Source: Sunxiuqinia dokdonensis | Lineage (GTDB): Bacteria > Bacteroidota > Bacteroidia > Bacteroidales > Prolixibacteraceae | Assembly: GCF_001270965.1 (NCBI RefSeq) | Contig: NZ_LGIA01000192.1 | Span: 1 to 54,298 of the forward strand | Reading direction: 5' to 3' | Length of the DNA stretch: 54,298 nucleotides | In this document: positions 36,423 through 52,748 of the stretch, piece by piece | Layout of the letters: each line of letters starts with the position of its first letter | Position numbering within the stretch: position 1 is the stretch's first letter | Notes under the pieces: generated by a model | What the model was told of the DNA's origin: nothing | Database searches by the model: none | Seen by the model: the letters and a program-made list of their open reading frames with translations, nothing else | Made by a program: the position numbers and the translations under genes

Positions 36423-36497
<75 letters not shown>

Positions 36498-36550: not shown

Positions 36551-36570
36551 GGTACAACATAGGTACAACA
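36551..36570. repeat. Short direct repeat GGTACAACA next to the tRNA
   Basis: GGTACAACA occurs at 36551-36559 and again at 36562-36570, two bases apart. A pair of short repeats just behind a tRNA gene is where integrase arm or attachment sites sit; no recombinase gene is nearby in the window, so this is only suggestive. Confidence 0.3.
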
Positions 36571-36604
36571 AATTCGATTCTCTATGATATTTTAAAGATC
36601 AAAT

Positions 36605-37921
36605 CTATTCAACATTATTCTTAAAGATTGCTACAAGAGGCTGAACCAATCGTTCAATTAACTTCCTGTCGTTTGTAATAATTTCAACAACTCCTTGCAT
36701 TTCCTGAATGAAAGGCAATTCCTTGCTATAATTGGTTACCAGACCATTCGATAGTCGCACTTCTGCGGTATAATATCCTCCTCCTTCGGGTGTTTTTACC
36801 GGAACCATGGAAATATTAGTTATCGTACTTTCCAGGAGTCCGTATTCCATGTATGGGAAATTGTCGAGTTTGATATTTACTTTTTGCCCTACCTCTACCT
36901 TACCTGACCCTGAAACAGGAATAACCATTTTACCGATTATTTCTTGCTCCGTTTCCGGAACCATAGTAAAAATACTGTTACCAACCAGAACAGGCTGTTT
37001 TTCCGACCACAAATCAGTGAATGCCACTTTCCCATCAATGGGAGCTGTCAGCACATAGGTTTGTTCCCATGTGTCAAACTGCGCCTTGAGATTGTCACTG
37101 CGTTCTTTCAAGGTAGACAGGAATCTGCTTTCCTGCTCATTTTTCTGGATATCTAGTTCCAATATCTGCTGCTTTAATTGGTTAATCTGTATTCGCGTAT
37201 TTGATATTCCCGAGACCGAACTCCTGTAATTATATTTCTGCTTGTAAAAAATTTGTTGGGACTGTTCATATTGCACTTCTGACAAGACCTTTCCCGCATA
37301 TAAAGTAGAATCCCTTTTAAGTTGTTTTTCATTTAAATCAAGGTCTCTTTTCAATATACTGGTTTGTTCTTCAAGTTGAACCAGGTATCTTTTATAATCA
37401 ATGACTTGCTGTGATAAAGACTCCATCTGTTGCCCCAAATGATTAAGCCGGACATAGTTTAAATATTCTTCCCACTGACTGACGAGTGAAGAATAATAGC
37501 TTTGACATTGACCTAGTGCTAATGTTTTGGGAAAACTAAAAGCTCTCAATCGATCTGTTGAACTAAAAGAAACACTTATGCTGTCCAGTAGACTTTTTAG
37601 TATCACCATATCATCAAAGATAGCGGGGTTTTCTATAACCGCAACAGCTTGCCCTTTCTTCACATTCTTTCCATCGGTAACAAATAACAACTCCAATCGC
37701 CCACTACTTCTCGCTACAATGGGAATAGGCGGGTTTTGCGAAACAATAGTAATGTGACCAGAAATGATATCAGGATATTTATAAAAGAAGCTTCCCAACA
37801 ACAAGGAAAGTACGATCAACAGAATAACAGATATTGAACTTCGCACAATCCATCCCGGCGGACTACCCAGAATCTCCCTGACTTCCTCACTTCGTAGTTC
37901 TATATTGTTATTCTCTGACAT
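36605..37921 (-). CDS. HlyD-family periplasmic adaptor of the lanthipeptide exporter
   Basis: 438 residues. Short cytosolic N-terminus (SEEVREILGSPPGWIVRSSI), one transmembrane helix (about 29-47), then a biotinyl-lipoyl-like half-motif (GRLELLFVTDGKNVKKGQAVAVIEN), a long coiled-coil (about 140-285) and the second half (APIDGKVAFTDLW). It links an inner-membrane ABC exporter to the outer membrane. The partner exporter gene lies 51 bases upstream on the same strand. No TolC-like gene is in the window. Last gene of the minus-strand cluster. Confidence 0.92.
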   Translation of the reverse strand: MSENNNIELRSEEVREILGSPPGWIVRSSISVILLIVLSLLLGSFFYKYPDIISGHITIVSQNPPIPIVARSSGRLELLFVTDGKNVKKGQAVAVIENPAIFDDMVILKSLLDSISVSFSSTDRLRAFSFPKTLALGQCQSYYSSLVSQWEEYLNYVRLNHLGQQMESLSQQVIDYKRYLVQLEEQTSILKRDLDLNEKQLKRDSTLYAGKVLSEVQYEQSQQIFYKQKYNYRSSVSGISNTRIQINQLKQQILELDIQKNEQESRFLSTLKERSDNLKAQFDTWEQTYVLTAPIDGKVAFTDLWSEKQPVLVGNSIFTMVPETEQEIIGKMVIPVSGSGKVEVGQKVNIKLDNFPYMEYGLLESTITNISMVPVKTPEGGGYYTAEVRLSNGLVTNYSKELPFIQEMQGVVEIITNDRKLIERLVQPLVAIFKNNVE

Positions 37922-37972
37922 TTCCTATTGCTTTTCAAATTCATGGTTTAATTTTGGCATCGATAGAACTTG

Positions 37973-40177
37973 TCAACTTCCCAGTTCCAACTGGTTTTTT
38001 ACCAGATTATAGTATGTACCTTTTCGGTCAACTAGTTCGCTATGGGTACCTATTTCAGTAATTTCACCTTTGTCCAACACAATAATTTGGTCTGCATTTT
38101 TTACAGTACTTAACCGATGGGCAACAGTAACTACAGTTTTACCTTGAAAGAACTCATCTAAGTTACTCATGATTTCCTTCTCATTATTGGCATCCAGCGC
38201 ATTAGTTGCTTCATCAAAGAAAAGAAACTCAGGATTTTTATACACTGCCCTTGCTATTAATATCCGCTGCTTCTGTCCCTGGCTTAAACCAACCCCTTCC
38301 TGCCCTATTTTCGTATTATACCTAAGTGGCAATCCTTCTATATATTCTCTGATATTTGCTGTTGTTACGGAATGAAAAAGTCTGTCCTTGTCCGGGATAT
38401 CATCAGCGACTGCAATGTTATTGGCAATGGTGTCAGAAAAGATGTAGCCGTCCTGCATGACCGTTCCACACTTCTTTCGCCACATATCCATGCTGAATTG
38501 TTGAAATTCGATGTCCCCCAAACTGATTTTCCCCTCATTGGGCGGGTAAAAACCCAAAAGGAGTTTCAATAATGTAGTTTTACCACTCCCACTCGCGCCC
38601 ACAATTGCAGTGATTTTATTTTCGGGAATAGTCAGGTTGATATCCTTTAATACCCGGGGTGATCGGGGACCTTCGTAATGAAACGATAAGTTTTCAATTT
38701 TCAGTGTGCGTTGCGATTGCACAGGGAGTTCTTCTATCTTTTGCATATCAGCAGGTTCCTCTTCCTCGCGTTCATGAATTTCCCCTAAACGTTCCAGACT
38801 TATTTTTGCATCCTGGGCGGTTTGGATAAATCCGATAAATTCATTGATAGGGGAATTCAGTTGTCCTATAATGTATTGAACCGCCACCATCATTCCCAGG
38901 GTCAAATCGCCTTCGATCACAGCCTTGGCTGATATAAAAGAGATTAGAATATTCTTGGCCTGGTTGATAAACACCGATCCTGCCTGCTGGTTTTGCTGCA
39001 ACATTAATCCCTTTATACTGACCCGGAACATACTTGTTTGTATTCGTTCCCATTCCCAGCGTTTCTGTTTTTCGCAACTGTTTAACTTAATTTCTTGCAT
39101 GCCGGTAATAAGCTGGTAAATATTACTCTGGTTGTCAGCCGAAACAGCAAAGCGTTTATAGTCAATCTCTTTTCTTCTTTTCAGGAACAATAGAATCCAC
39201 GTGACATACAGGATGCTACCGGCATAAAAAACTAACAGGATCCGCAAGTCATAGTATGCCATGATGAAACTGTAAATGATGAACATGAACACGCCAAATG
39301 ACATGCTGATCAGATTACCCGTTAAAAAAGATTGGATCCGCTGGTTATCATCTATCCGCTGCCTGAGATCTCCTATCATTTTTGTGTCAAAAAACCGGAT
39401 GGGGAGCTTCATAAGTTTAATCAGGAAGTCTGAAATCAAAGAAATGCCAACCCGCACACTGACATGGAGCATAATCCAGCTACGGACGAATCCTACTGCT
39501 GTCTGGCTTATAGTTAGGACTAATTGTGCAACCAGTACCAGCACAATAAAATTCAGATTATTGGTTGCAATCCCCACATCAACGATGGCTTGTGTAAGAA
39601 AAGGCAGGATCAGGCTCAGCAGGCTTCCGGTCAGAAAACCGAGTATGAGTTGCAAAATTAATCTACGATAAGGTTTAATATACTTCAAAAGGTACCTAAA
39701 CCCCGCTTTATTCACTTTTTCCCCCTTCTCACTATAAAAATCAGGCGTTGGTTCCATAAACAGGGCAATCCCCTTTTGTTCTCCGTCCTCTTTAGTGCTG
39801 GCCCAACATCTCAGGAATTCATCTTTGGAATATTGTAACAACCCGACAGCCGGATCAGAAATAAATACGACAGCTCCACTTCTGTTTGATCTAATTTTAT
39901 AGACTACGACAAAATGGTTTTGATTCCAGTGCAGAATGCAAGGAAATGTTGCTTCTTCTAACTGCTCAAATCCTAGGCGCACGCCCTGCGTTCGAAATCC
40001 GATCTTTTCAGCAGCGTCGCTTAACGACAATAAAGAAACTCCTTCGCGAGATTTATACGTCAGCTCTCGTAAAACATGCAGATTATAGTGTTTCCCATAA
40101 TATTTGGCCACAATCCGCAAGGCAGTCGGACCACAGTCCATGGCATCAGGTTGTTTATAGTGAGGGAACCTTTTCAT
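37973..40177 (-). CDS. Peptidase-containing ABC exporter of the lanthipeptide (C39 bacteriocin-processing type)
   Basis: 734 residues. The N-terminal C39 peptidase has Cys15 (DCGPTALRI), His88 (NQNHFVVVY) and Asp108 (ISDPA), the full catalytic set, so it cuts double-glycine leaders during export. Transmembrane ABC region about 160-440, then ATPase with GASGSGKTTLL, LSQGQKQRILIARA, FLFFDEATNALD and AHRLSTVKNAD. The precursor gene about 6.4 kb upstream encodes a GG leader that fits. Overlaps the upstream LanB elimination-half gene by four bases. Confidence 0.95.
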   Translation of the reverse strand: MKRFPHYKQPDAMDCGPTALRIVAKYYGKHYNLHVLRELTYKSREGVSLLSLSDAAEKIGFRTQGVRLGFEQLEEATFPCILHWNQNHFVVVYKIRSNRSGAVVFISDPAVGLLQYSKDEFLRCWASTKEDGEQKGIALFMEPTPDFYSEKGEKVNKAGFRYLLKYIKPYRRLILQLILGFLTGSLLSLILPFLTQAIVDVGIATNNLNFIVLVLVAQLVLTISQTAVGFVRSWIMLHVSVRVGISLISDFLIKLMKLPIRFFDTKMIGDLRQRIDDNQRIQSFLTGNLISMSFGVFMFIIYSFIMAYYDLRILLVFYAGSILYVTWILLFLKRRKEIDYKRFAVSADNQSNIYQLITGMQEIKLNSCEKQKRWEWERIQTSMFRVSIKGLMLQQNQQAGSVFINQAKNILISFISAKAVIEGDLTLGMMVAVQYIIGQLNSPINEFIGFIQTAQDAKISLERLGEIHEREEEEPADMQKIEELPVQSQRTLKIENLSFHYEGPRSPRVLKDINLTIPENKITAIVGASGSGKTTLLKLLLGFYPPNEGKISLGDIEFQQFSMDMWRKKCGTVMQDGYIFSDTIANNIAVADDIPDKDRLFHSVTTANIREYIEGLPLRYNTKIGQEGVGLSQGQKQRILIARAVYKNPEFLFFDEATNALDANNEKEIMSNLDEFFQGKTVVTVAHRLSTVKNADQIIVLDKGEITEIGTHSELVDRKGTYYNLVKNQLELGS

Positions 40178-41076
40178 TTATTAACTTTGTTTTCAACTCC
40201 ATACTGTAACCTGGCTGCCTGCGAACTATAAAACTTGCACATAAAATAATATACTACCAGTTCATGCATCCGCTGTTTGGTCCGAAACAAACGGTTAAAG
40301 TGCATATGAACCAAACTGGACAACAAGTTATTCAGGGGCATTTCTATTTTCCCTTGATCAGATATCTTCACAATGTCTTGGATTATTGGCTGGGCACTAC
40401 TCATATATCCCGAAATATGTCCTAACCCCGGAAAGTTTTTCCCATTTTCTAAATCAATAATATTGGTTATGTGTTTTATTTCCTTCCTGTACTTTTTATC
40501 CAGTTGTATTCTCATGGACTTATTTATTTGAAATTCCGAGGAATAACCATCATTGAGCATTTTGTAGAATTTTATCTTGTCTGATAATGATAAACCAAAT
40601 TGTTCCAGTAATACATCCATACACTTTACACCCCACAACCACTTGATTAGATCATTTCCAGCTTCTTCGGTTTCCTTTAAAAAATTAACGATTGCTAAAC
40701 TATCCAAGCAGAACAGGCTTTCCATTTCTGTTATGGTTAGTTTCCCATATCTTTCCAGTTCTCGGCTATAGGTATCAGCAGAAACATTCCAGACCAACCT
40801 GTTGTCCAAGTAATATTTTAAACTGTTATTTAAAAGCCTGATCACCACATTTAGTTTAGACACATCCCGCAAATGAAAACGGATTCTCAAATGATAATCA
40901 GGATCTGTATATCGGATAAAAAAGAATTTATCAATTATTTTAGTTTGAAACAACTCCGTCACAACCTGATGTAATTCCCGAGTCAAAATGGTTTCCAGAG
41001 TTTTAGGGCCTGAATAAATCTTAAAATATGCCCATTGATCACCTAAAATAAACCTTCTCTGTACTTCATTATTCAT
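40174..41076 (-). CDS. LanB elimination domain as a separate protein (SpaB C-terminal / thiopeptide-type)
   Basis: 300 residues. Starts with the typical IYSGPKTLETILTREL and FFIRYTDPDYHLRIRFHL; the latter is the hallmark of the lantibiotic-dehydratase C-terminal (elimination) domain. It removes glutamate from glutamylated Ser/Thr to leave Dha/Dhb. It overlaps the glutamylation-half gene by eight bases and the exporter gene by four. Together the halves (757 + 300 residues) match a full LanB. Split LanB pairs are known from pinensin producers (Chitinophaga). Confidence 0.92.
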   Translation of the reverse strand: MNNEVQRRFILGDQWAYFKIYSGPKTLETILTRELHQVVTELFQTKIIDKFFFIRYTDPDYHLRIRFHLRDVSKLNVVIRLLNNSLKYYLDNRLVWNVSADTYSRELERYGKLTITEMESLFCLDSLAIVNFLKETEEAGNDLIKWLWGVKCMDVLLEQFGLSLSDKIKFYKMLNDGYSSEFQINKSMRIQLDKKYRKEIKHITNIIDLENGKNFPGLGHISGYMSSAQPIIQDIVKISDQGKIEMPLNNLLSSLVHMHFNRLFRTKQRMHELVVYYFMCKFYSSQAARLQYGVENKVNK

Positions 41077-43342
41077 TGGTCGGCTTTTTGTCCTTGTAAA
41101 AACTCAAAATCACCTGGTTGGTAAATACCTCTTCATCCCTTTTTACCAATGGGTATTGGTCATCAAATAAAAACTCTTCGAGCCTGAAAGGTTTTTTCTT
41201 AACCTCAGAGAATAGCATCTGAACAGATAATTCATGGTTAAAATCGATCAGTAGTTTATTATCACCTTGAACCAATAAAACTTTGTCCGGTATGTTTCTT
41301 TTCTTTTTGAACTCTAAAGCTCTTTTGTGGAAATGTTTATCTGCTATTTTCGGAACTTGTTTTGTATCATCAGGAACTATATTCCATATCGCGGGAGAGA
41401 AAATACTGTTCTCGTATCTAACTCGTGGCAGAAAGGGTTTACTTTCCAAGATTGGGCCCCAGTTAAACCCAATCCAGCTTCGTAACCCTTGTGTTTGCAT
41501 CGCACATAAAAAATGATAAACGGGCAATGAATTGCTAGGGAAGTTATGTGCACAGGAAAGTCTGGGTAAAACTTCTTTATTCAATCGTTTTGACCACAAT
41601 TTTATATATTTGCCGTGGGGAACTGAGACCATCAAGTCCGCTAACGGGATAACATTGCTTCCAACCGAAGGATTAGCCAAATATGGGATTTCGTATTCCC
41701 GTAACACGGGACGCATTAATATGTTGCCTATCCGGGATTCTGGCAGATGGACAATTTCCGCCAGAACCTTATCCGGATTTAGTTCCTGTTCTTTTTCTGT
41801 TATTTGTTTTACATGCTTATGAATTTTTTCATCCAAATAGCAGAAGCGCCCCAGCAAGCTGGATGCGGATGATCCTCCTGCCTGTCCCATTGTAATAAGT
41901 GGGTCTTCAAAGCATTCCTCTGTTCGAATCACCTCGATCATGACGGAAATCGTATCAGGCAAATCATCCCAAGTTTCAGGAAAAGGTTCTAAATCTTGAT
42001 CGGTAATTCTAATCTCCTTCGTCTGACCATCTTTTAGAAAATCATCGTATTTTTTTAGAAGCATCCGTTGTACCGGTGTGATTTTTATGTCCTGTACAAT
42101 GAATTGCTGACCGGCAAAAAATACTCCCTCCAATAACGGCGCTATATCTCCGTTCTGTCCGTCTATTTTTCCGAATCCAGCCCCGGCTTCAACGTCAAGG
42201 GCCTGAAGTAGAGATATTTCTTCATCTTCGTATTTCTTATAAAAGTCTTTCCGAAATTTTTCTAACAATGGATTTTCATATGGAGGGGTTAAACGGTTAA
42301 AGGCTTTGATAGCCTGATAAGCGGTATTACATATCGTATCACTGACCGATGCTTGTTTGGGTGCTACAAATAAATCTGACTGGAACAGGTATTTTTCATC
42401 ATAGTTGGTTTCGAATGGTTTAAGCTGTTCTTTTACGCTTTCGTAAAGGGCAATCGGTCTGCCAATAGGGTTGTTATCTATATTCTGTAATGAAGCTTCA
42501 ATCTCCTTTAACGAAGAGATTATTTCTTCTGTTCCATCAAAATCTTCCAGCTTACCAATGAATTGTGTCAACAAATCATCTCCCGTAACAGACGGATCCA
42601 ATTCACTGGCTAGAATCTGGTTATTGATTAGCTCATTAATATACTCCCTGGCGTATTCAATGGTAATATCTTCATCAACTAGTAAATTCGCCATGCCGTC
42701 AATCGTTTCCCCATTTGCTGCTTTTTGCAGAACTTTCTGCAAATACTCAGTCTGCTCCGCTTGTGACAAAGTAAATTTCCTTTTGGCTTTAAAAAAATGA
42801 TATTCCGTATAGCGCAAATCTTTACCCGATTCATAAAGGCTGGTGTTAGGATAGTATCGGGCTTGATTTTTTATCAATTCAGTTTTGGAGACATCCTGAA
42901 TTAAAGCGCAAAGATAGCTCATATCCAGGCGGGTGCTGCTCTTGAATTTATTCAGTTCTGCAAGCTCAATATAACTATGTTGTCCAATTTCTCCAACGCC
43001 ACATCCAGCAAAAAGACCAAAAGGTGTACAACGGGTATGCATGCGTACATAATATTTTAATAAGGAAATTCGCGATTTTAGAAGTTTAATACTTGCCTTC
43101 TTTCTTACTAATTCCGGTTGAATTTCGTTAGTCAATACTGGTGAAGCTAAAAATGTGGCTTCGTGAAATATGCTATTGTTTGCCCATGAAGAGTCAACTG
43201 TAGTACATTCTTCATTCAAAATATTCAAAGGACAAATAGATGTTCTAAAAATGAATGAATGAAATTTTTGAAAAGTTGCTTTAAATTTGCCACTCATTGT
43301 TTTCAAATAAAAAGAATAAAAGTTATATTGTTTAGTTCGCAT
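41069..43342 (-). CDS. LanB glutamylation domain as a separate protein (lantibiotic dehydratase N-terminal)
   Basis: 757 residues; the ATG at 43297 is an alternative start. Family segments include FRTSICPLNIL near the start, the RCTPFGLFAG motif (about 105-114), DVEAGAGFG, and near the C-terminus RYENSIFSPAIWNI. This domain transfers Glu from Glu-tRNA to Ser/Thr of the precursor, which the second half then eliminates. Function is assigned by homology. About 190 bases separate it from the upstream oxidoreductase gene. Confidence 0.92.
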   Translation of the reverse strand: MRTKQYNFYSFYLKTMSGKFKATFQKFHSFIFRTSICPLNILNEECTTVDSSWANNSIFHEATFLASPVLTNEIQPELVRKKASIKLLKSRISLLKYYVRMHTRCTPFGLFAGCGVGEIGQHSYIELAELNKFKSSTRLDMSYLCALIQDVSKTELIKNQARYYPNTSLYESGKDLRYTEYHFFKAKRKFTLSQAEQTEYLQKVLQKAANGETIDGMANLLVDEDITIEYAREYINELINNQILASELDPSVTGDDLLTQFIGKLEDFDGTEEIISSLKEIEASLQNIDNNPIGRPIALYESVKEQLKPFETNYDEKYLFQSDLFVAPKQASVSDTICNTAYQAIKAFNRLTPPYENPLLEKFRKDFYKKYEDEEISLLQALDVEAGAGFGKIDGQNGDIAPLLEGVFFAGQQFIVQDIKITPVQRMLLKKYDDFLKDGQTKEIRITDQDLEPFPETWDDLPDTISVMIEVIRTEECFEDPLITMGQAGGSSASSLLGRFCYLDEKIHKHVKQITEKEQELNPDKVLAEIVHLPESRIGNILMRPVLREYEIPYLANPSVGSNVIPLADLMVSVPHGKYIKLWSKRLNKEVLPRLSCAHNFPSNSLPVYHFLCAMQTQGLRSWIGFNWGPILESKPFLPRVRYENSIFSPAIWNIVPDDTKQVPKIADKHFHKRALEFKKKRNIPDKVLLVQGDNKLLIDFNHELSVQMLFSEVKKKPFRLEEFLFDDQYPLVKRDEEVFTNQVILSFYKDKKPTNE

Positions 43343-43532
43343 CTCTGATTTTTGATCTCAATATATTTGCTACATTTCAGAAATAGTAGCTATACCGATA
43401 AAAAACCACCCATCATTAAGAGGATTAAACTGCTTGTGAGTTTATGACTCATACTTTCTATAAAACACCGATGATCTATAAGATCGACGGTAAACAGTTT
43501 CTCGCTTACGCTTGTCATATCAGTAATTTGGA

Positions 43533-44669
43533 TTAGTCATCATATTTATATACTACCTTGCCAAATCGGGCAGGGTCATTAAATGTACGGTCAAAAAAGT
43601 ATGACAATTCCGGACCAGACACTACACTGTCGACTGGAATGTTAAAATTGCCAGATATATAATCATTAATAGCTTGCTTTAGGTGCCTACGTTCTCCTAA
43701 GCAACTCCCAATGAGTGATATATTTTTTATAATTAAATACGGAATAGCTTCGGGTAGTGTTTTCCCAATATATTCGTTGTTATTTTGCTCAACTGTTTTA
43801 CACTGACCTGAGAAACCACATGTCAAATACCTAGAATTAAAGCCCATACAATCAATCAGTCTCCCGAAATGCAAATCAGAGAAAGGATCAAAGACAACAT
43901 CAAAACCTCCAGTTTGTCTTACAAACTGTGTAATTTCCTGAGAGTGCATCAGGTTTGTAAGATGTTTTTCCAACTTAAAAACTTTTTTGACCCCTAGCCT
44001 TTCAAATTCTTCACCAAAATTATCACTTGTCGTTAGCCCATATACATTGCAGTCCAAGTTTTTTATAGCTTCAGCAAATATGAGTGATGTGTTTGATTTC
44101 AATGATGTTATCAATATATTTTCCTTTTCTCTTATTTGAGCTTTCTCTCTAATATTATAGATCGTATGTCCCGCTATGGTAAAAGCAGCCGCTATTTCAT
44201 CAGGCATATGTTCTGGAATTCTGATTAACTGGTCCTTATGAAAAAGTTGATAGCGCTTAGAAGATGTATTTGATGGTATTCCAGGAAGTAAACTTTTATT
44301 AAAGTGAAATGGATAGGGTGCAACGGGTATTACTCTATCACCAACATTTATCTCTGTTACATTAATTCCCTTTTTTATAACTGTGCCAACAAATTCAGAT
44401 CCTATAGCACTATACATGGCATCCTCACCGCTCATTTGTTTTTTCATCCTATTCAAGAATTCAAAAAGAAGAGCTTTGTCTCTGTAGTTAAGAGAAAAGG
44501 CATTCTTTTTTAACAGAACAAGATTGCCACCATTTTCTTCGCCTAAGAATATAGGCTCTTTCTGGTCTACAATAGCGATGGGTATCCTTACCTTCTCTAA
44601 AAAGAAATGGTCAAGATATTTAACGGAACCCTCAACCACATTGTTACTGCAAATCACTATATTATTCAT
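43533..44669 (-). CDS. Medium-chain dehydrogenase/reductase family protein, candidate lanthipeptide reductase
   Basis: About 378 residues from the ATG of MNNIVICSNNVVEGSVKYL; an open frame to 44702 overlaps lanC. The MDR fold shows GSEFVGTVIKKGINVTEINVGDRVIPV (GxExxGxV), the N-terminal GroES-like part and a Rossmann segment (ENILITSLKSN with LGVKKVFK). The Cys/His residues binding catalytic and structural zinc in alcohol dehydrogenases are not evident, so it is quinone-oxidoreductase-like. In lacticin 3147 the MDR protein LtnJ reduces Dha to D-Ala; the place of this gene between lanC and lanB suggests a similar tailoring, by inference only. Confidence 0.75.
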   Translation of the reverse strand: MNNIVICSNNVVEGSVKYLDHFFLEKVRIPIAIVDQKEPIFLGEENGGNLVLLKKNAFSLNYRDKALLFEFLNRMKKQMSGEDAMYSAIGSEFVGTVIKKGINVTEINVGDRVIPVAPYPFHFNKSLLPGIPSNTSSKRYQLFHKDQLIRIPEHMPDEIAAAFTIAGHTIYNIREKAQIREKENILITSLKSNTSLIFAEAIKNLDCNVYGLTTSDNFGEEFERLGVKKVFKLEKHLTNLMHSQEITQFVRQTGGFDVVFDPFSDLHFGRLIDCMGFNSRYLTCGFSGQCKTVEQNNNEYIGKTLPEAIPYLIIKNISLIGSCLGERRHLKQAINDYISGNFNIPVDSVVSGPELSYFFDRTFNDPARFGKVVYKYDD

Positions 44670-44674
44670 AATTA

Positions 44675-45796
44675 CTATTTTAACAACATTAATTTTTCCC
44701 ATTGTAGATGGTCATTCTTTAAAAAGCTTAAGAGTACGAGACCTACCCCGCTTAGCCCTGTAAGAAAGCCGGTGCGAGAATACTTCTTCTCTTTAAGAAA
44801 CCTTAACGTAGTATTTAACCAGTAAAAAGCTGTTTCTTCAAATCGTTTGTCCTTAGTAAGCTTATACGCATTTAAGAATATTATAGCCAGTCCAGCACTT
44901 CCATGACAAAAATATGGGTCATCGACCTGACTGTCCGAGACATCTCTCCTGATTGCAGAATGTAAAAGAATCTCTTTGCCGAATTCGTAGACTTCCGTAT
45001 TACCTATTTTATTGCCGGAAATTAGGAAAGTTATACCGATTCCAGCATCTCCATAACACCATGCTAAACGACAATTTTTATCAATTCGATTTTTGGAAGA
45101 TATACCATAAGCAAACAAAGAGGTGTTTTTACTCGTGTGATTCTCGTTACTTAAGTAAAACTGGTAGATTTGCTCGACTATTCTTTTTGCGTGCCAAAAA
45201 TTGGGATATTTGAAGTAAGTCTCTGCCATAATTCCGACTATTGCGGCCATTCCATGTGCTAATCCGAGGTTAACGTAGCTTTTATCAAAAGTTACCCTAT
45301 GATATGATTTCCAAAATATACCATGTCCATTTTTGTTGCGAAATGCTAGTAAATCATTGATCATTTCTTCGAGAAATGGAACTGCTACGTCATCAGGGCG
45401 ATTCAAGAAATAAAACATATACCCGAGTCCCCCGAAAAGGAATTCATAGTTATTTGGCTTCAACGACTTTTTAAAAGTTGAAAACATTTGATTATCTGTG
45501 TCATAGGTTACCTCTAATGGTATCTCCAACGTCTTGTTTATCAGGCAAAATGCTGTTAATATGCCGCAAAGACCATTCGCATAATTATATGTATAAGGTC
45601 TGGATTCAATTTCCCCTATAACCCTCGGTATAGATTGATTTAAATAATTTGTAATGTTTTTATCTTCTTGAAAGTTCAAATACTCAGACAAAAACAAGAT
45701 CTTTCCTATCTCCCCTTCAAGAAGCCCAATCTGTCTCAAATTATCTTTCGTCACCTCGTTAGCAATATCACTGATTTTATTGATCATGAATGACAT
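44675..45796 (-). CDS. Lanthionine synthetase C (LanC cyclase)
   Basis: 373 residues. The zinc ligands are Cys247 (LAWCYGDAG) and Cys297-His298 (YFCHGSAG), with the conserved LAHG His181; inner-barrel repeats such as GLLEGEIGKILFL, GLAHGMAAIVGIM and GFLTGLSGVGLVLL mark the alpha-toroid fold. It adds Cys thiols to Dha/Dhb to form lanthionine rings. It overlaps the preceding lipoprotein gene by about 20 bases and precedes the MDR gene by five. Confidence 0.95.
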   Translation of the reverse strand: MSFMINKISDIANEVTKDNLRQIGLLEGEIGKILFLSEYLNFQEDKNITNYLNQSIPRVIGEIESRPYTYNYANGLCGILTAFCLINKTLEIPLEVTYDTDNQMFSTFKKSLKPNNYEFLFGGLGYMFYFLNRPDDVAVPFLEEMINDLLAFRNKNGHGIFWKSYHRVTFDKSYVNLGLAHGMAAIVGIMAETYFKYPNFWHAKRIVEQIYQFYLSNENHTSKNTSLFAYGISSKNRIDKNCRLAWCYGDAGIGITFLISGNKIGNTEVYEFGKEILLHSAIRRDVSDSQVDDPYFCHGSAGLAIIFLNAYKLTKDKRFEETAFYWLNTTLRFLKEKKYSRTGFLTGLSGVGLVLLSFLKNDHLQWEKLMLLK

Positions 45797-46499
45797 TATT
45801 AGTTGAAGGAGGCTTTTTCATACATTTTTGCGATTGAAGGTGTTCTATGACACCTGTAAACCTTCTTTTATTCATTTTGCCCTTAACATTCTCGTTGTAC
45901 AATATTTCTATTGCAGACTTCGCCAGCTCTTTTAACTCAAAATGTTCTAATGAAGAATCTCGTTCTTCAAAAGTTTTTACAGGGGGAAAACCCAGAACTC
46001 CGTTGTGGTATATAAGTGGATCGGGGTCATCGAATCCTAAAACATGCATCATTTCATGATAGAAAAGCTTCTTTCGAGTGCCCCCACTATTTATAGGGGA
46101 TATCCAAACATGACACTTGTAAAGATAACCCAGGGCAGTCCATTTTCGTCTAGTCAAAGCCGAATAGCCTTTGGGTGGATCACTAAAGTCAACTTTGACA
46201 TTCCCGTTAGAATTAACTCTCATTATAGGTAATTTAGGGACTAAACTATGTATTAACGCAATAAAATCATCGATCATTTTTATATCTTCTTCATAAAAGA
46301 GACCGGCTGCTTCGATTCTCATTTCGGATTTCCATTTAACGATAAACTTTTCATTAACGAATCCAGTCATAATAAAATGCTCTAATTCTTTATCATTATA
46401 ATTTCCGAGAAAAGACAAATCAGTATTTTCATTCAAGGTACACGACAAAAAGAATACAGATAATGGAAATATAATGATAGATAATATCTTTTTTTTCAT
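45777..46499 (-). CDS. Lipoprotein with metzincin-like zinc-protease motif
   Basis: 240 residues. A lipobox ending at Cys20 (FFLSC) predicts a lipid-anchored, extracytoplasmic protein. Residues 148-158 read HEMMHVLGFDD, i.e. HExxHxxGxxD with Asp158 as third zinc ligand, the form known from snapalysin-type metzincins. No named family was recognised for the rest. It lies between the precursor and lanC. Possible roles: trimming the exported peptide, degrading it as self-protection, or cleaving host proteins; none is proven. Overlap with lanC makes cotranscription certain. Confidence 0.8.
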   Translation of the reverse strand: MKKKILSIIIFPLSVFFLSCTLNENTDLSFLGNYNDKELEHFIMTGFVNEKFIVKWKSEMRIEAAGLFYEEDIKMIDDFIALIHSLVPKLPIMRVNSNGNVKVDFSDPPKGYSALTRRKWTALGYLYKCHVWISPINSGGTRKKLFYHEMMHVLGFDDPDPLIYHNGVLGFPPVKTFEERDSSLEHFELKELAKSAIEILYNENVKGKMNKRRFTGVIEHLQSQKCMKKPPSTNNVIHDQ

Positions 46500-46520
46500 A
46501 ACACGTGTGATTCGAAATAT

Positions 46521-46548
46521 GAAAACAGGATGGAATATTCCACCCTGT
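46521..46548 (-). terminator. Hairpin terminator directly behind the precursor gene
   Basis: On the minus strand ACAGGGTGGAA and TTCCATCCTGT pair (one G-U) around a two-base loop, followed by TTTTC. It starts ten bases after the precursor stop. Leaky termination would give precursor in excess over the modification enzymes. Confidence 0.7.
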
Positions 46549-46557
46549 CATGCGTAT

Positions 46558-46857
46558 TTAACAATATTGAGCAGAGCCATAAACATCAACTCCCGTTATT
46601 TCACATATCGGCTCTCCATTTGGTCCGGTATAGATTAACTGATCTGATGGTTGAGCTGGTGGTTCATCACCACCTCCGATCGTATAGCCAATAACAGAAC
46701 CGACTATTGCAGAAATAGTAGCTACGCACAAGTTAGAAGAATACGTAACTGTTGTAATAGGGCTAGTACCCCCCACAACATTTGACTGTTGAACATCGTT
46801 GAGTTCTACAATTCTCTGCTTCTTCAATTCTAATCTTTTCAACTTTTTCTTTTCCAT
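46558..46857 (-). CDS. Lanthipeptide precursor with GG leader
   Basis: 99 residues. The basic leader (1-30) has the spaced Leu/Ile pattern common in Bacteroidota class I precursors, e.g. KLKRLELKKQRIVELNDVQQ, ending VVGG at Gly29-Gly30. The core (31-99) would have 69 residues: a Ser/Thr-rich start (TSPITTVTYSSNLC), a Gly/Ala/Ile-rich hydrophobic segment (about 45-63) and a polar tail with Pro, Asp and Gly. Cys44, Cys85 and Cys99 can form up to three rings with the many Ser/Thr. The core is much longer than those of typical lantibiotics. It lies between the dead LanC-like gene and the metzincin lipoprotein. Confidence 0.88.
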   Translation of the reverse strand: MEKKKLKRLELKKQRIVELNDVQQSNVVGGTSPITTVTYSSNLCVATISAIVGSVIGYTIGGGDEPPAQPSDQLIYTGPNGEPICEITGVDVYGSAQYC

Positions 46858-46988
46858 AACAAGATTTTTATGGATTGATAATTCGTTTTTTAATTTCCAC
46901 TATCGCAGGACTTTGTTAACCAATCGGCCTGTTGACTACACGGCACACCAGGCTTAGCCATGACAAATAGGTAAAAAGATTCTTCCTG

Positions 46989-47018
46989 TTTGCTGATCGT
47001 ATTTCTTGTGTATCTTTG
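46989..47018 (+). promoter_or_regulatory. Plus-strand promoter within the minus-strand cluster
   Basis: TTTG at 46989-46992 and TATCTTTG at 47011-47018 with 18 bases between them match the Bacteroidota layout, pointing right against the surrounding genes. Confidence 0.5.
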
Positions 47019-47024
47019 CCGGCA

Positions 47025-47096
47025 ACTACATTGATTTGTGGTTATTATGCTTATGGAACCGGCGAAGGGGGCGAGCCTGACCCGGTTCTTTTATGA
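47025..47096 (+). ncRNA. Candidate small RNA (or 19-residue ORF) between precursor and LanC-like gene
   Basis: From the predicted start near 47025 the sequence runs into GAACCGG (47056-47062) paired with CCGGTTC (47082-47088), followed by TTTTAT, a terminator in plus direction only. The product would be about 70 bases. An ORF of 20 codons (47047-47106) starting ATGCTTATGGAACC overlaps; it would end after the terminator, which speaks for RNA and not for translation. No known RNA family was recognised. Confidence 0.4.
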
Positions 47097-47110
47097 TTCT
47101 ATATAAAATT

Positions 47111-48091
47111 TTAACTCATTTGCTTCTCCAACTCAACGTTTAGTTTAAAGAAGCAGAGCCAATTCTTTACACTTCCTTTATGTTCGGTAAACATTATCGC
47201 ATCTTTGATCAACCCCAAACCAAGACCGGTCAAGCCTCTTTTAAAAAAAAGATCAGATACGGTCAAATCAGTAATAATAGCGTTAAAATATTCATTGGCA
47301 ACTTTGAGGTCGATTGCTGGACTCTCATTTGGCAAATAGAGTAGGTTTTGCCAGATATTTTCTATTTCATATTCCTTCTTTTCGGGTTTCATCATTGTTT
47401 CCAATTTTTGCACTAAAGTTGATCGCTCTATTATTGAACTATCTACGTTCTTCAAAAGCTTTCTGAAAATTATTAAATCTTCATTTGGAAAACTGGAAAG
47501 GTCTTTTCCAATCAAGCATTTTAGAGATTTGACTAAGACATTTTTAACTATTTCATTTTCAAAGCCTGATACACACAGTCGAGTCAGCAAGAAAACAACA
47601 CAGTTGTAATAGGCTAAACCTTGTGTTGAATTATCCAGATGTTTGTTGATTCCTTCAAGCACCTGAACAATTAGATCCTGAAGCCAGTCGTGCTGAGACT
47701 GTCTATTGTCCCACCGACATAACCAATAAAGCATTTGTGTATTTTCGGGTGGTTTATTATTCGAAACAGAGGTTTGTAGTCTTTGGTCAATGTCATAAAG
47801 AATATCATCAGGATCACCTTCTACGAAATTTGCTTTGATTAAATGGTTGGTGCCGATGCCAACTTCAAATAATTCGTGCGAAAGGATAGGAAGCTTATTA
47901 TCTTGTATCTCCGTGAAAACATCGTCAAGCATTTCATCTGCGACCTTAGTATAAATTGGCTGTTTTATGAATCGACCATAGTGATAAAAAAAGACAATTA
48001 TGCCTATTCTCCCCTCAAACAGTCCAACCTGAGAAATATCTTGAATATTTATCATTAATGTATTGGCGATTTTCTGTAATAATCTTTTCAT
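47111..48091 (-). CDS. LanC-like protein without zinc ligands
   Basis: 326 residues. The N-terminal SQVGLFEGRIGIIVFFYHY parallels the true LanC start RQIGLLEGEIGKILFLSEY, and the end FFKRGLTGLGLGLI parallels GFLTGLSGVGLVLL, so it has the alpha-toroid repeats at both ends. The WCYG and CHG zinc motifs and the LAHG His are missing. It cannot be a normal cyclase and may bind or present the precursor, or serve as scaffold. Two bases downstream of the glycosyltransferase stop, upstream of the precursor. Confidence 0.65.
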   Translation of the reverse strand: MKRLLQKIANTLMINIQDISQVGLFEGRIGIIVFFYHYGRFIKQPIYTKVADEMLDDVFTEIQDNKLPILSHELFEVGIGTNHLIKANFVEGDPDDILYDIDQRLQTSVSNNKPPENTQMLYWLCRWDNRQSQHDWLQDLIVQVLEGINKHLDNSTQGLAYYNCVVFLLTRLCVSGFENEIVKNVLVKSLKCLIGKDLSSFPNEDLIIFRKLLKNVDSSIIERSTLVQKLETMMKPEKKEYEIENIWQNLLYLPNESPAIDLKVANEYFNAIITDLTVSDLFFKRGLTGLGLGLIKDAIMFTEHKGSVKNWLCFFKLNVELEKQMS

Positions 48092-48092
48092 G

Positions 48093-49931
48093 TCAATTCT
48101 TTTTTTGTTCGATAACTTTTCTAAAAAAGGAAGTTAAGGCAGGAACGTGATAGTCAAACGAGAATAGCATCCTTTTGTCCATAACGTTGCATGCTAATTT
48201 CTCCATCAAATCCTGATCTCTGAGTTTCAAACATAAATCCTCGCAATCTTTAAATAAGATTCCAATGTCAAACTTCTTGATCTTTGTTTCTGTCGCAACA
48301 ATGTGACCCTTGTTATTTTTTTGAATAACAGGAAGTCCGGCTGCCATATATGTATTTATCCTGGCAGGTATATTCAGGTCGTCCCATGAAGCTTTCATCA
48401 GGCTTCCCTGATTTTGACTCTCAAAACTATGTAGCCAGCCTGCATCGTATTGTGAGAATTCTTTTACCCAGTTTGAATGGGAACAATGCGGGTGGACATG
48501 AAAGTGACTGGGAGCCACTCTTTTGTATTCATTAATCTGCTTTTCTCTCGAGTCATGATAATTCTCTGTATAAAGATGGATGTGGATGTTATTTTTCGAT
48601 AGTTCCAGAAGGTCCTTTGTAGATATGCCGACCATTCTTCCCGCAATTACGGTATGTATGGCTCCATCTTTAGCTGACAGCTTTGGTGAGAAGTTAGTTG
48701 TAAAATAATCGGCTTTCGGCAAATCGCCATCCAATATATAGGACGCATTTGATGAGGGGATAAACTGTTCATACCATATCCGAATGGTTTCATTCAAATA
48801 TATCCTCCCATCTGCATGGCTATACAAATGAAGTAACTCATTCCAGGTTCCCTGTCGCAAACAAACTGAAGGCCCTTCCTTAAAATGCCAAACAAAAGGG
48901 ATTTGCGGACAACTTGTAAGAACCTCATAGGCAAGAGGGACTGCTCCAAAATTCAACAGCCCATAAATAATATCCGGCTTTACTTCTTCGACCTTGTTTT
49001 TCCAGTCGCGATAAGGAATATCCTCAACGTGTCCAAAAGGCAAATGCCCAACAGTATTGAAGCTAAAAGAGGGTTTTTGAACCCATAATCCATATAGCTT
49101 ATGACCAGCCTCTTCCAATGCGTAAATTCGTTCCGGGTTGTAGGCCAGTTCGCCAACAATCAATATCTTTAATGAGTGTGCAATAGCTTGGGACTGCTTT
49201 CTAAAAGAACCATAGAGCTTTTCCTCATCAACAAATTTATATTTTGAAACCTTTAGCCTTATTGGTTCTGATACACCATAATAGCTCCTGAAATAATTTA
49301 AGCCCCCACCATATTTCTCACCTAAAATTTTATGTCTTTGATGGGGATGATTAGTCCAATAACAGGTTACCTTCCTGGTTGGAGCAAATATTCCATCTCT
49401 AAGTAACTTATGCCAATACATAGAAGCCAGGTTTTCCGTAACCCACTCACTCCTCTCCAACCATTTGTGATTTGATTTTCGATGTGATGTTTGCACCAAC
49501 TGGAGACAATAACCTTTTTTTATTGTAATACACGATTGGTTGGCAGAGAAAGACATCGTATCAGAAGTCTCGTATTTAACGCCACTAAATGTCAACGAAA
49601 TATCGGGAGACTCGGCAAACTTTTCTGCCAATGTTTCCAAATGACTTTCAAAGTAATAATCATCAGAAGGCAGGTAAGCAATATAGTCATATTTCGCTTG
49701 AATAAGTCCTTGATTAAGGGCAGCTCCCAATCCCGTATTTTTTTCATTTCTAAAATAACGAATTCGCTTATCGCTAAGAAAATCCGAGACATAAAACTCC
49801 GTTTCGTCGGTGGAGCCATCATTGATAATAATTAGCTCCCATTTGCCATAGGTTTGGCCTTGCAGACTGACAATAGCACGTCGGATAAAAGAGGCTTGGT
49901 TATAGGTTGGCATTAGCACAGAGAAATACAT
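48093..49931 (-). CDS. Two-domain glycosyltransferase (GT2 plus GT-B-type)
   Basis: 612 residues. Residues about 1-230 are a GT2 domain: SVLMPTYNQASFIRRAI, IIINDGSTDETE, NTGLGAALNQGL and PSDDYYFESHLE with the DxD-like Asp pair. Residues about 245-612 form a second, GT-B-like part (LKILIVGELAYNPERIYALE, GRIYLNETIRIWYEQ, PARINTYMAAGLPVIQKNNKG). Two-domain architectures like this occur in polysaccharide and antibiotic clusters. It is first in the minus-strand operon and ends just before the LanC-like gene, so it probably glycosylates the peptide or a partner; the acceptor is unknown. Confidence 0.85.
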   Translation of the reverse strand: MYFSVLMPTYNQASFIRRAIVSLQGQTYGKWELIIINDGSTDETEFYVSDFLSDKRIRYFRNEKNTGLGAALNQGLIQAKYDYIAYLPSDDYYFESHLETLAEKFAESPDISLTFSGVKYETSDTMSFSANQSCITIKKGYCLQLVQTSHRKSNHKWLERSEWVTENLASMYWHKLLRDGIFAPTRKVTCYWTNHPHQRHKILGEKYGGGLNYFRSYYGVSEPIRLKVSKYKFVDEEKLYGSFRKQSQAIAHSLKILIVGELAYNPERIYALEEAGHKLYGLWVQKPSFSFNTVGHLPFGHVEDIPYRDWKNKVEEVKPDIIYGLLNFGAVPLAYEVLTSCPQIPFVWHFKEGPSVCLRQGTWNELLHLYSHADGRIYLNETIRIWYEQFIPSSNASYILDGDLPKADYFTTNFSPKLSAKDGAIHTVIAGRMVGISTKDLLELSKNNIHIHLYTENYHDSREKQINEYKRVAPSHFHVHPHCSHSNWVKEFSQYDAGWLHSFESQNQGSLMKASWDDLNIPARINTYMAAGLPVIQKNNKGHIVATETKIKKFDIGILFKDCEDLCLKLRDQDLMEKLACNVMDKRMLFSFDYHVPALTSFFRKVIEQKKN

Positions 49932-50072
49932 CGTAAATAGTTAACTTTAGTTAGGATAAAAAACAACAGTCATATTATATACTACCAGAATGATAAAAAA
50001 TATTTTTTTAATCTTTGTTTCTCGATAACTAATACATCCTAATACAAGTTTATACTCATAAACAAAATTGAA

Positions 50073-51182
50073 ATGTTTGATTTTCTTATTGTAGGTTCAG
50101 GTTTATATGGAGCAGTCTTCGCTCACGAATGCAGGAAAAAGGGGTTTAAATGTCTTGTTCTTGAGAGAAGGGACCATATTGGTGGAAATCTTTACTGCAA
50201 AAATGTCAATGACATCGAGGTTCACTGGTATGGCGCGCATATATTCCACACTTCCAGTCCGGAGATCTGGGATTACATGAATCAATTTGCTCAATTTAAC
50301 CGGTACACTAATTCTCCTATGGCCTTTTATAAAGAAAACCTCTACAATCTTCCTTTTAACATGAATACTTTCTATCAACTTTGGGGGACAAAAACCCCTG
50401 CTGAAGCCCGTCTCAAAATTGAGGAACAAACAGCCCGACATAAAGGTGCCCTCCCGGCAAACCTTGAAGAGGCTGCTTTGCAGATGGTTGGAGAAGATAT
50501 TTATTTCAAGCTTGTCAAGGGATATACTGAAAAACAGTGGGGAAAAAAGGCCACTGAAATACCGGCTTTTATTATCAAAAGAATTCCTTTAAGGTTTATT
50601 TTTGACAATAATTACTTCAATGATCCATTTCAGGGAATTCCAAAAGGTGGGTATAATGTGATTATAGAAAGACTGTTAGAGGATATTACAGTTCATCTAA
50701 AAACCGATTTCCTGGAAAATCGGGATCATTGGATGACGGTGGCGAGGAAAATTATTTTCTCGGGTGAAATAGATCGATTCTTCAATTACAAATTAGGCAA
50801 GCTGGAATATCGAAGTTTACAGTTTGAGCATAAACTTTTAACCGGAACATCAAATTACCAAGGCAATGCCGTTATTAATTACACCGATGCAGAAGTGCCG
50901 TATACCCGGATTATAGAACACAAACATTTCGACTTTGGGACACAGAAGGACACTTTCATCTCTTATGAATATTCAGCTGATTTTAAAGACGGACTTGAAC
51001 CATATTATCCCATAAATGACGAAAAAAACAATACGCTTTATCAACGATACAAAGAAGAAGCGAAGAAGCTCCCACAAGTTCATTTTGGGGGAAGACTTGG
51101 ATCATACCGGTATTACAATATGGATCAGGTTGTAGCAGAAGCGCTAAAGGACAGTAGAAGCCTCTTAATATCTTTGACATAA
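50073..51182 (+). CDS. glf: UDP-galactopyranose mutase
   Basis: 369 residues. The FAD-binding start FLIVGSGLYGAVFAHE, GAHIFHT, and the C-terminal RLGSYRYYNMDQVVAEAL are characteristic; the RSLQFEHKLL segment matches the substrate-binding region. It converts UDP-Galp to UDP-Galf, the donor of galactofuranose. It is divergent from the glycosyltransferase gene with 141 bases between them. A functional pair is likely but an origin from an O-antigen cluster cannot be excluded. Confidence 0.95.
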   Translation: MFDFLIVGSGLYGAVFAHECRKKGFKCLVLERRDHIGGNLYCKNVNDIEVHWYGAHIFHTSSPEIWDYMNQFAQFNRYTNSPMAFYKENLYNLPFNMNTFYQLWGTKTPAEARLKIEEQTARHKGALPANLEEAALQMVGEDIYFKLVKGYTEKQWGKKATEIPAFIIKRIPLRFIFDNNYFNDPFQGIPKGGYNVIIERLLEDITVHLKTDFLENRDHWMTVARKIIFSGEIDRFFNYKLGKLEYRSLQFEHKLLTGTSNYQGNAVINYTDAEVPYTRIIEHKHFDFGTQKDTFISYEYSADFKDGLEPYYPINDEKNNTLYQRYKEEAKKLPQVHFGGRLGSYRYYNMDQVVAEALKDSRSLLISLT

Positions 51183-51631: not shown

Positions 51632-52300
51632 ATGGATGCACTAATACGCAAAGCCGGCCAGATTTTGTACCTGTTGGATTTAAGGATCAGGAAGCTGCTT
51701 TATTACAGGATCCTTCGAAACCATACCTCCATGATTCTTTTTATTTGGATTTTCCTGACGGTAATTTTTTTGACGGTATTGTGGGGACTGGGATATCCAT
51801 CCGAAAAAGCGATTATGTATTCCATTGGGTTAAGCGTTGTGTTCTTCATTATGCTGGTTTTAATGGGGGCATACTACGAAGCAAAACGCTTACAAGCCAA
51901 TGAACTCAACTCGTGCTTTCATTTCACCCGCTCCAACATGAATGGCATCCTCATTTCAGAATTGGGCTTTTCAGAAACGGACCGTGAAAACCTGAACCTT
52001 GTGCTCAATAACCTTCAGCCCAAAAGTAAAATCGATTTCAAACTGGTTTCCGACAACCGGATTGCAGCAGACTATAAAAAACTTCTACGAGTTATTCATT
52101 TACTGATTGTTGGCGGGATCAGGGATTTCAAAAAGGAACAAAAGGAACTGCTCTTTAAATTCGTGGAGGCCAACTTCACCTTGAATGGATCACCGGTGAA
52201 CCGGGCCAGTTTTAATTCCCGGTTTTCGGAACTGGTCAACGAAAAGGAACAGGAATTCCAAAATAACCTGGAGCCTTTTCAAAAAGCACTTCGGAAATAG
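51632..52300 (+). CDS. Membrane protein of the mobile element, unknown function
   Basis: 222 residues. Two transmembrane helices at about 31-55 and 62-84 with a basic N-terminal start, then a soluble C-terminal domain (about 90-222) with LNSCFHFTRSNMNGILISELGF and RDFKKEQKELLFKFVEANF. No named family recognised. It is the first gene of a set (this, an excisionase-like gene and a primase-helicase) that typically occurs at one end of Bacteroidota integrative elements. Confidence 0.7.
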   Translation: MDALIRKAGQILYLLDLRIRKLLYYRILRNHTSMILFIWIFLTVIFLTVLWGLGYPSEKAIMYSIGLSVVFFIMLVLMGAYYEAKRLQANELNSCFHFTRSNMNGILISELGFSETDRENLNLVLNNLQPKSKIDFKLVSDNRIAADYKKLLRVIHLLIVGGIRDFKKEQKELLFKFVEANFTLNGSPVNRASFNSRFSELVNEKEQEFQNNLEPFQKALRK

Positions 52301-52430
52301 ACGGTATTTCTCCCGTAATTACCCCGTAACTGCAAATACTTTCTTGATGATCAGTCAGATGCGAGCCTATATTCGCTGATGACAATTTGTTGCACCTGGC
52401 AACATGAGTAATCATCAAAAAACATCTGCC

Positions 52431-52745
52431 ATGGAAAATGAAGCAATTATTTCAAAAGCAGTTCTAAATGAACTCAAACAGATCAAAAGCCTGCTATTCG
52501 AGAACAAGACGGTTTTCAATGTTGAAGATCTCTCGCAGTACACCGGGCTTTCGAAAAGCAAAATCTACAAGCTGCTTAGCCAGAAACTCATCCCAACGGG
52601 GAGCAATGCCAACATCCGCCAGAAGTTTTTCTATAAGAAGGACATCGATGAGTGGCTGATGGGCTTTTCCCGCGAAGACCTGGAAACAGAAGAAGCTTTT
52701 AACCAGTCCCTTTCCAGCAACAGGAAATTCGGGCAATCCCTGTAG
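52431..52745 (+). CDS. Excisionase-like helix-turn-helix protein
   Basis: About 104 residues from the ATG of MENEAIISKAVLNEL; an earlier ATG at 52404 is possible. The central segment VFNVEDLSQYTGLSKSKIYKLLSQKLIPTG is a MerR/excisionase-type winged helix-turn-helix, and YKKDIDEWL completes it. Such proteins regulate excision or replication genes of mobile elements. It precedes the primase-helicase gene by three bases. Confidence 0.88.
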   Translation: MENEAIISKAVLNELKQIKSLLFENKTVFNVEDLSQYTGLSKSKIYKLLSQKLIPTGSNANIRQKFFYKKDIDEWLMGFSREDLETEEAFNQSLSSNRKFGQSL

Positions 52746-52748
52746 CGT

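Follow-up and report, generated by a model that had tools for sequence, protein, structure and literature searches.

A putative mobile class I lanthipeptide-type cluster in Sunxiuqinia dokdonensis with a zinc-less LanC-like protein linked to a glycosyltransferase

The gene cluster studied here occupies positions 36605-49931 of a 54,298-nucleotide stretch of Sunxiuqinia dokdonensis DNA (contig NZ_LGIA01000192.1, assembly GCF_001270965.1; the whole stretch is called the window). The cluster is real and coherent, and the more novel part of it is the module made up of a zinc-less LanC-like protein and a glycosyltransferase (GT). With a probability of roughly 0.6, the sequence points to a mobile class I lanthipeptide-type cluster whose product would be tailored twice beyond its rings, with D-amino acids and with a sugar, the zinc-less LanC recruiting the GT. 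The recruiting role is suggested by the finding that zinc-less LanC-like genes in sampled genomes of the order mostly lie close to, or are fused with, GT genes.

Gene content and lanthionine enzymes of the cluster

An initial annotation of the window had described this region as a lanthipeptide cluster on one strand. All ten of the listed open reading frames (ORFs) were found, each on the minus strand, and hidden Markov model matches identified the core enzymes. The cluster and the gene beside it are as follows.

36605..37921, minus: HlyD-family export adaptor, 438 aa (HlyD_3, 1.3e-11)
37973..40177, minus: C39-peptidase ABC exporter, 734 aa (C39, 2.2e-32, and ABC domains)
40174..41076, minus: LanBc, separate LanB elimination domain, 300 aa (Lant_dehydr_C PF14028, 5.9e-68)
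41069..43342, minus: LanBn, separate LanB glutamylation domain, 757 aa (Lant_dehydr_N PF04738, 1.3e-141)
43533..44702, minus: LanJA-family medium-chain dehydrogenase/reductase (MDR), predicted dehydroamino-acid reductase, 389 aa (ADH_N, ADH_zinc_N; LtnJ homology)
44675..45796, minus: LanC cyclase, 373 aa (LANC_like, 2.1e-37; WCYG and CHG motifs)
45777..46499, minus: DUF2927-like lipoprotein with HExxHxxGxxD, 240 aa, protease or immunity candidate (motif; homologue in locus L059)
46524..46549, minus: terminator-like hairpin 3' of the precursor gene, 11-pair stem, possible attenuator
46558..46857, minus: precursor LanA, 99 aa (NCBIfam NF038153)
47111..48091, minus: zinc-less LanC-like protein, 326 aa (LANC_like below cut-off; tree placement)
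48093..49931, minus: GT, 612 aa, GT2 N-terminal part and second conserved domain (GT2, 5.9e-32)
50073..51182, plus: UDP-galactopyranose mutase (Glf), divergent (PF03275)

The leader of LanA is 30 residues long (MEKKKLKRLELKKQRIVELNDVQQSNVVGG) and ends in VVGG, in agreement with the GG leader proposed earlier. It reads LELKKQRIVEL...VVGG, which fits the LxLxKx5L motif and GG end of Bacteroidetes class I leaders, and it scored 27.5 bits against the NCBIfam class I leader profile NF038153 (cut-off 22). The core of 69 residues contains 15 Ser/Thr and 3 Cys. The full zinc site ascribed to LanC was present (WCYG at residue 246, CHG at 297), LanB is indeed split over two proteins, with PF04738 and PF14028 on separate ORFs, and the C39 exporter and HlyD protein were both recovered. 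The requirements of class I are glutamylation and elimination domains of LanB, a LanC with zinc ligands, and a class I leader with a Ser/Thr/Cys core; all of these are encoded here. The locus is thus a class I lanthipeptide-type system, and lanthionine is predicted in the product.

The initial annotation knew of no described cluster with this set of genes. The set is unusual, but its core belongs to a Bacteroidetes class I type that has already been described, with LxLxKx5L...GG leader, C39 and split LanB (PMC7268733). With that type the window shares the leader motif, the GG site and C39, LanC, and split LanB, for which pinensin is a further example described there, whereas the LanJA enzyme, the zinc-less LanC with GT and Glf, and the DUF2927-like lipoprotein are additional.

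The genes are closely spaced. A single base separates the GT from the zinc-less LanC, and overlaps were found between lipoprotein and LanC (20 bases), LanC and MDR (28), LanBn and LanBc (8) and LanBc and C39 (4); LanA is 58 bases from the lipoprotein gene and C39 51 bases from HlyD. Wide gaps were seen between the zinc-less LanC and LanA (253 bases) and between MDR and LanBn (190 bases). Terminator-like sites in the region numbered 14 against 9.1 (sd 3.2) in shuffles. The gap at 46858-47110 holds only ORFs of up to 52 aa, none of which was recognised as the leader of a second precursor. On the strand opposite to the cluster, at 47016-47096 (+), there is an open 26-codon stretch ICGYYAYGTGEGGEPDPV, which may be the remaining end of a small gene that has been lost. 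A scan of 14 ORFs, the ten of the cluster and four at 50-54 kb, turned up neither LanRK nor LanFEG genes; the earlier remark on missing regulatory and immunity genes holds over this range.

It had also been proposed that loss of the precursor or of intact genes in relatives would mark the cluster as a decaying remnant. Precursor-like ORFs with a GG leader and the motif were found at 62 of 108 LanB loci, a set that includes five duplicates and some short contigs, and in L059 the order LanA-lipoprotein-LanC-LanBn-LanBc is kept. In a minority of relatives LanB is interrupted (LanBn of L048, L049 and L059; LanBc of L036/L091, L041 and L097), which may be due to decay or to assembly error. For the cluster in the window, decay was unsupported because its own genes are open and tightly packed.

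Zinc-less LanC-like proteins and glycosyltransferases

The zinc-less LanC homologue noted in the initial annotation was found to contain neither CHG nor WCxG, and its zinc-site region is a gap in the alignment. Against the Pfam LANC_like family it gave 4.8e-5 and 22.5 bits (cut-off 23.2), with only residues 23-116 of 326 aligned. The description can be refined, since the protein belongs to a GT-associated clade.

LanC-like genes were searched with PF05147 in 393 genomes of the order, taken as Bacteroidales. This gave 60 matches in 38 genomes, of which 58 were examined; up to five candidates were scored per genome, and the counts are lower bounds. 'Dead' LanCs were defined as those without CHG, at most 52 bits and at least 200 aa long (n = 20, from 12 genomes), and the 'other' LanCs as those above 52 bits (n = 33, from 26 genomes; two of the 33 without CHG). 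The 52-bit cut was picked after inspection of the list, and the training set of the LanC profile consisted partly of dead LanCs. Five matches were left out of both groups: two short fragments (99 and 102 aa) and three ORFs unreported by the LanC profile; the latter were excluded by hand, one of them before its profile test. A GT was counted when it lay within three genes and 4 kb, or was fused.

A GT was near or fused in 19 of 20 dead but only 2 of 33 other LanC-like genes (p 3e-11), and both GT-adjacent 'other' LanCs, those of the window and of L047, sit in clusters that also hold a dead LanC. Among the 19 GT-linked genes, 15 are fused or have the GT as the next gene on the same strand, two have it two or three genes away, and two on the opposite strand. 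With GT queries taken solely from an unrelated locus, the counts were 13/20 and 1/33 (p 1e-6). When the five set-aside ORFs were counted as dead LanCs without a GT, the linkage was 19/25 against 2/33 (p 3e-8), and in the same worst case with the unrelated-locus queries 13/25 against 1/33 (p 2e-5). An earlier version of the test looked at LanB loci only and was in part circular, its query GTs having come from those loci; redone with five queries from an unrelated locus, it found a GT at 4 of 8 loci with a dead LanC and at 0 of 95 others (103 unique of the 108).

Neighbouring proteins gave the same picture by Pfam. The 73 neighbours of dead LanCs, including the GT half of the L046 fusion, matched GT2 (14), GT4 (7), GT7C (4), Gly_transf_sug (2) and Branch (2), multiple matches per protein being possible. 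Among 101 neighbours of other LanCs, no GT family was present in the 25 commonest of 83 families; the 25th has two members, so an unlisted GT family could match at most two proteins. This control covers 101 of the 108 neighbours; seven were omitted as belonging to dead-set clusters or LanC fragments, namely four from the window, two from L047 and one from L033.

In a 55-row tree, 22 dead LanC rows formed one clade (support 98/97). It comprises all 20 dead LanCs of the order sample, the dead LanC of L065 and the second dead domain of L175, and the window's protein groups next to that of L166 (99/72); long branches make some placements unsure. The unfused dead LanCs of the order sample are open over 233-372 aa. 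A simple paralogue of the window's own LanC was also considered and was unsupported: the two did not group in the tree, although the window LanC is poorly placed there. Fusions of GT2 with a dead LanC occur in L046 and L175, and of a dead LanC with a radical SAM domain in L173. The latter is a 588-aa ORF (L173:4819-6585, G472:C206) with a zinc-less LanC domain at residues 23-112 and the radical SAM domain at 340-446. The AlphaFold model of the window's protein is all-helical (mean predicted local distance difference test score, pLDDT, 68.6), and its three best Foldseek matches were chains of the lanthipeptide synthetase CuvL. Because its family travels with GTs, the zinc-less LanC is more plausibly a docking helper than a relic.

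A different zinc-less LanC was seen in L101, L111 and L121 (Flavobacteriaceae), beside two luciferase-like proteins and several tandem precursors; the luciferase-like proteins are the LanJC family of PMC7268733. The LanCs of L101 and L111 fell outside the main clade, and that of L121 was not part of the tree.

The cassette of the window recurs elsewhere. The two-domain GT proposed earlier was confirmed for the GT2 part, while its second half was recognised mainly via homologues, being unnamed in Pfam and giving one weak NCBIfam match. The GT of L167, encoded by an ORF that starts within the GT2 part, shares 52.1% identity with the window's GT over 505 aa; in L166 the match is spread over two ORFs, with 53.0% identity over 483 aa on one and 50.0% over 92 aa on the other. 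In both loci a dead LanC comes next (26-39% identity to that of the window over 117-181 aa), and L166 also encodes a Glf with 55% identity to that of the window. TIGR04149 precursor, TIGR04148 radical SAM and TIGR04150 pseudo-radical SAM proteins mark L166 as a GG-Bacteroidales system. It shares with the window the zinc-less LanC, two-domain GT, Glf, GG-leader precursor and C39 exporter, and differs in that its peptide is matured by the radical SAM and pseudo-radical SAM pair. No LanB match was found in the L166 and L167 stretches (the latter a 3.6-kb contig) or, at E 1e-20, in their genomes G444 and G408. Since the cassette recurs there without LanB, the GT, zinc-less LanC and Glf appear to form a single module for adding a sugar, attached to two different machineries for ribosomally synthesised and post-translationally modified peptides (RiPPs). 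The window's Glf is the only PF03275 match in its genome and the only Glf among the 108 LanB loci, many of whose stretches are short, and its gene (50073-51182) is probably part of the module. The stretch examined gave no LanB match at 17 of the 20 dead LanC loci, where dehydroalanine (Dha) and dehydrobutyrine (Dhb) may therefore be absent.

Zinc-less LanC-like genes have been reported with radical SAM genes in the Bacteroidales clusters BGC3-5, BGC3 also having a GT, and were judged closer to endoglucanases and outside lanthipeptide clusters (PMC10352776). As described there, those proteins lack the C..CH triad like the ones studied here; the present zinc-less LanCs form a clade, some occur with LanB, and they are GT-linked. 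No paper treating zinc-less LanCs as GT partners was seen among those listed by a literature search that reached few subscription papers.

Predicted reduction, glycosylation and export of the peptide

The MDR oxidoreductase of the initial annotation, recognised by ADH_N and ADH_zinc_N, is by homology better placed in the LanJA family of reductases. By BLASTP it is 29.5% identical to LtnJ of lacticin 3147 (pMRC01) at 92% coverage and 142 bits, with an E-value of 1e-42 that holds for a three-protein database; against 72,556 plasmid records, tblastn found pMRC01 at E 3e-31. A profile of the MDR and two relatives aligned with LtnJ over 332 columns (profile-profile E 7.4e-49). The MDR alone matched no PDB chain at E 0.001; the three-row profile reached at best 48.6 bits (E 5.6e-12) against PDB MDRs, and LtnJ itself 33.8 bits. 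The enzyme shares the unusual motifs of LtnJ and is much nearer to it than to any PDB MDR. On plasmids, 72 records matched; the best among the 25 matches listed were in Pseudanabaena, Azospirillum, Pediococcus, Staphylococcus and Lactococcus. In three regions inspected, the neighbours were LanM in Pseudanabaena and Lactococcus, and a HopA1-family gene with ABC transporters in Pediococcus.

Since the MDR belongs to the LanJA family, dehydrated Ser/Thr are probably reduced to D-alanine and D-2-aminobutyrate. Dha is the substrate of LanJA enzymes, and RodJA reduces Dhb as well (PMC11519912). Zinc-dependent dehydrogenases of the LanJA type have been reported in clusters of all four classes, D-residues having then been observed only in class II (PMC7268733). 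LtnJ and the MDR are of the same family over near-full length, and both genes lie with dehydratase and precursor genes; LtnJ, and RodJA of rodencin as described, partner the class II LanM, whereas the window's enzyme partners a class I split LanB. Relatives are rare: with the genome of the window included each time, two of the 393 genomes from the order and two of the 395 from the phylum have such an MDR. In the other MDR-bearing genomes, G271 (L046) and G749 (L140), LanA, MDR and split LanB are paired, and neither genome has a LanC above the Pfam cut-off. At E 0.001, the LanC-like content of G271 is only the GT-fused zinc-less domain of L046; G749 has no LanC at that threshold, and no GT was noticed in the L140 stretch. 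LanB and LanJA without LanC would give lanthionine-free D-amino-acid peptides.

The lipoprotein carries HEMMHVLGFDD at residue 148 and, by eye, a lipobox-like start; metzincins are defined by HExxHxxGxxH/D. It matched no Pfam family and no PDB entry of note, and its fold model is a low-confidence prediction (mean pLDDT 36). The metzincin-type label given to it earlier thus applies to the motif only. The homologue in L059, a DUF2927 protein of 28% identity in the same slot between LanA and LanC, is without both motif His, and within 140 family genomes the lipoprotein was found in two, that of the window and one other with a weak match (E 4e-4). Exported hydrolases of varying family recur near a precursor or dead LanC in other loci.

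L046:7945-8901, L058:7477-8454, and L059: TraB-type hydrolase
L065:8092-9369 and L172:4528-6255: erythromycin-esterase-type hydrolase
L166:3904-5133: aspartyl-protease-like hydrolase

From these homologies we infer the following route. The split LanB would glutamylate and eliminate Ser/Thr among the 15 of the LanA core, and LanC would use the three Cys to form as many as three thioether rings. Remaining dehydroresidues would then be reduced to the D-amino acids by the LanJA-family MDR. As a peptide-binding adaptor, the zinc-less LanC would guide the GT to the GG-leader peptide, and the GT would add a sugar, plausibly galactofuranose supplied through the adjacent Glf. The C39 exporter would cut after VVGG and export the peptide with HlyD. 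For the DUF2927-like lipoprotein, trimming of the peptide or protection of the producer is a guess; self-protection, if true, would fill the place of the missing immunity gene.

Mobile context, alternative readings and significance

On the low-coordinate side of the cluster lie lspA and a tRNA gene, and on the high-coordinate side a further group of genes.

36423..36497, plus: tRNA-Met (cat)
51632..53954, plus: module of a protein without Pfam match, an HTH_17 protein and a DUF5906 protein

The GC content is 0.376 in 36573-51880 and 0.471 in 1-36497. lspA and tRNA-Met are conserved in 6/6 same-genus genomes, in which similarity to the window ends at 36497-36572; in one of them (L155) the contig ends about 100 bases past the break. 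In each of five same-genus relatives read by eye, the genes after tRNA-Met look different. The segment 51884-54165 is 75% identical to a same-genus stretch about 11 kb past the same tRNA. In L140 the mini-cluster of LanA, MDR, LanBn and LanBc adjoins a YWFCY/TraG protein, a MobA-type relaxase and a MobC-like protein. The low GC, the tRNA-Met boundary, the variable genes beyond it, the mobile-element-like module and the mobilisation genes of L140 make it probable that the cluster is carried by a mobile element at a tRNA hotspot; in this genus the tRNA-Met that follows lspA seems to take up different insertions. No att duplication of the tRNA end was found in the window for 12-17-base suffixes, and no integrase was seen there; the contig ends at 54298, short of the element's far end.

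The cluster could instead be an ordinary Bacteroidetes class I lanthipeptide locus; the zinc-less LanC would then be a paralogue in decay, and GT and Glf surface-glycan genes placed beside it on the island by chance. The core genes match the described type, Glf is transcribed divergently, and L150, of the same genus, has by eye an apparent glycan locus after the same tRNA. This is unlikely in view of the single clade of 20 order-sample dead LanCs, whose unfused members have stayed open, the GT close to or fused with 19 of them, the one-base spacing in the window, and the recurrence of GT, dead LanC and Glf together in L166, whose genome gave no LanB match. It is less probable still that the zinc-less LanC is a metal-free cyclase, perhaps acting on different residues. 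Class III LanKC cyclases form rings without zinc ligands (PMC10604976, PMC7268733), and the genome of L046 has LanB, two core Cys and only a zinc-less LanC-like domain at E 0.001. Against this stand the short Pfam alignment with its gapped zinc-site region and the 17 of 20 dead LanC loci without a LanB match in the stretch examined. A role of the MDR in another redox step, on a sugar nucleotide or a side chain, would accord with its identity of only about 30% to LtnJ, the versatility of MDRs and the enoyl reductases and alcohol dehydrogenases among the PDB relatives of its profile. Its closeness to LtnJ and the shared motifs argue otherwise, as does L140, where an MDR accompanies LanA and split LanB, the genome gave no LanC at E 0.001, and no GT was noticed in the stretch; such a role thus seems improbable, ranking between the other two alternatives.

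Several points weigh against a tailored lanthipeptide with a GT-recruiting zinc-less LanC. The product, its expression and the enzyme steps are predictions from sequence, and the proposed LanJA function depends on an identity to LtnJ of about 30%. For one of the 20 dead LanCs there is no GT nearby, the 20 come from 12 genomes only, five from a single genome, and the extended GT panel was partly built from tested loci. In the tree, 4 of 26 dead rows (L101, L111, L110 and L059) lie outside the clade, a single origin of all dead rows appears in none of the bootstrap trees, and the tree program issued a long-branch warning. The Foldseek E-values are weak (best 0.022, none at 0.001), the template modelling score to CuvL is about 0.4 by query length, and the C-terminal third of the model is poor. 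Glf is usual in cell-surface glycan loci, and the GT could act on a cell-surface glycan instead. The label 'dead' may also be wrong, by analogy with class III cyclase domains, which are active without zinc ligands (PMC10604976).

A wider proposal, tentative and put at somewhat under even odds, is that the zinc-less LanCs of Bacteroidota are a general recruitment domain, of one clade and separate or fused, that brings GTs, and once a radical SAM enzyme, to GG-leader peptides of different RiPP machineries. The window would then carry this module on a LanB/LanC/LanJA system yielding a galactofuranosylated D-amino-acid lanthipeptide, and the LanC-free relatives would make D-amino-acid peptides without lanthionine.

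LanB is present in an order for which a survey of 1,136 Bacteroidales genomes reported none (PMC10352776): the LanB N-domain was matched at E 1e-20 in 26 of the 393 sampled genomes, many of them draft assemblies, the window's own included. The Bacteroidales that carry zinc-less LanC-like genes include human-associated species, and that survey set the genes aside as probably lying outside lanthipeptide clusters. If they encode recruitment partners of GTs, they would flag an unexplored group of glycosylated ribosomal peptides and could offer a portable part for adding sugars to peptides. The pairing of LanB with LanJA, if it functions as predicted, would bring D-amino acids into class I chemistry.

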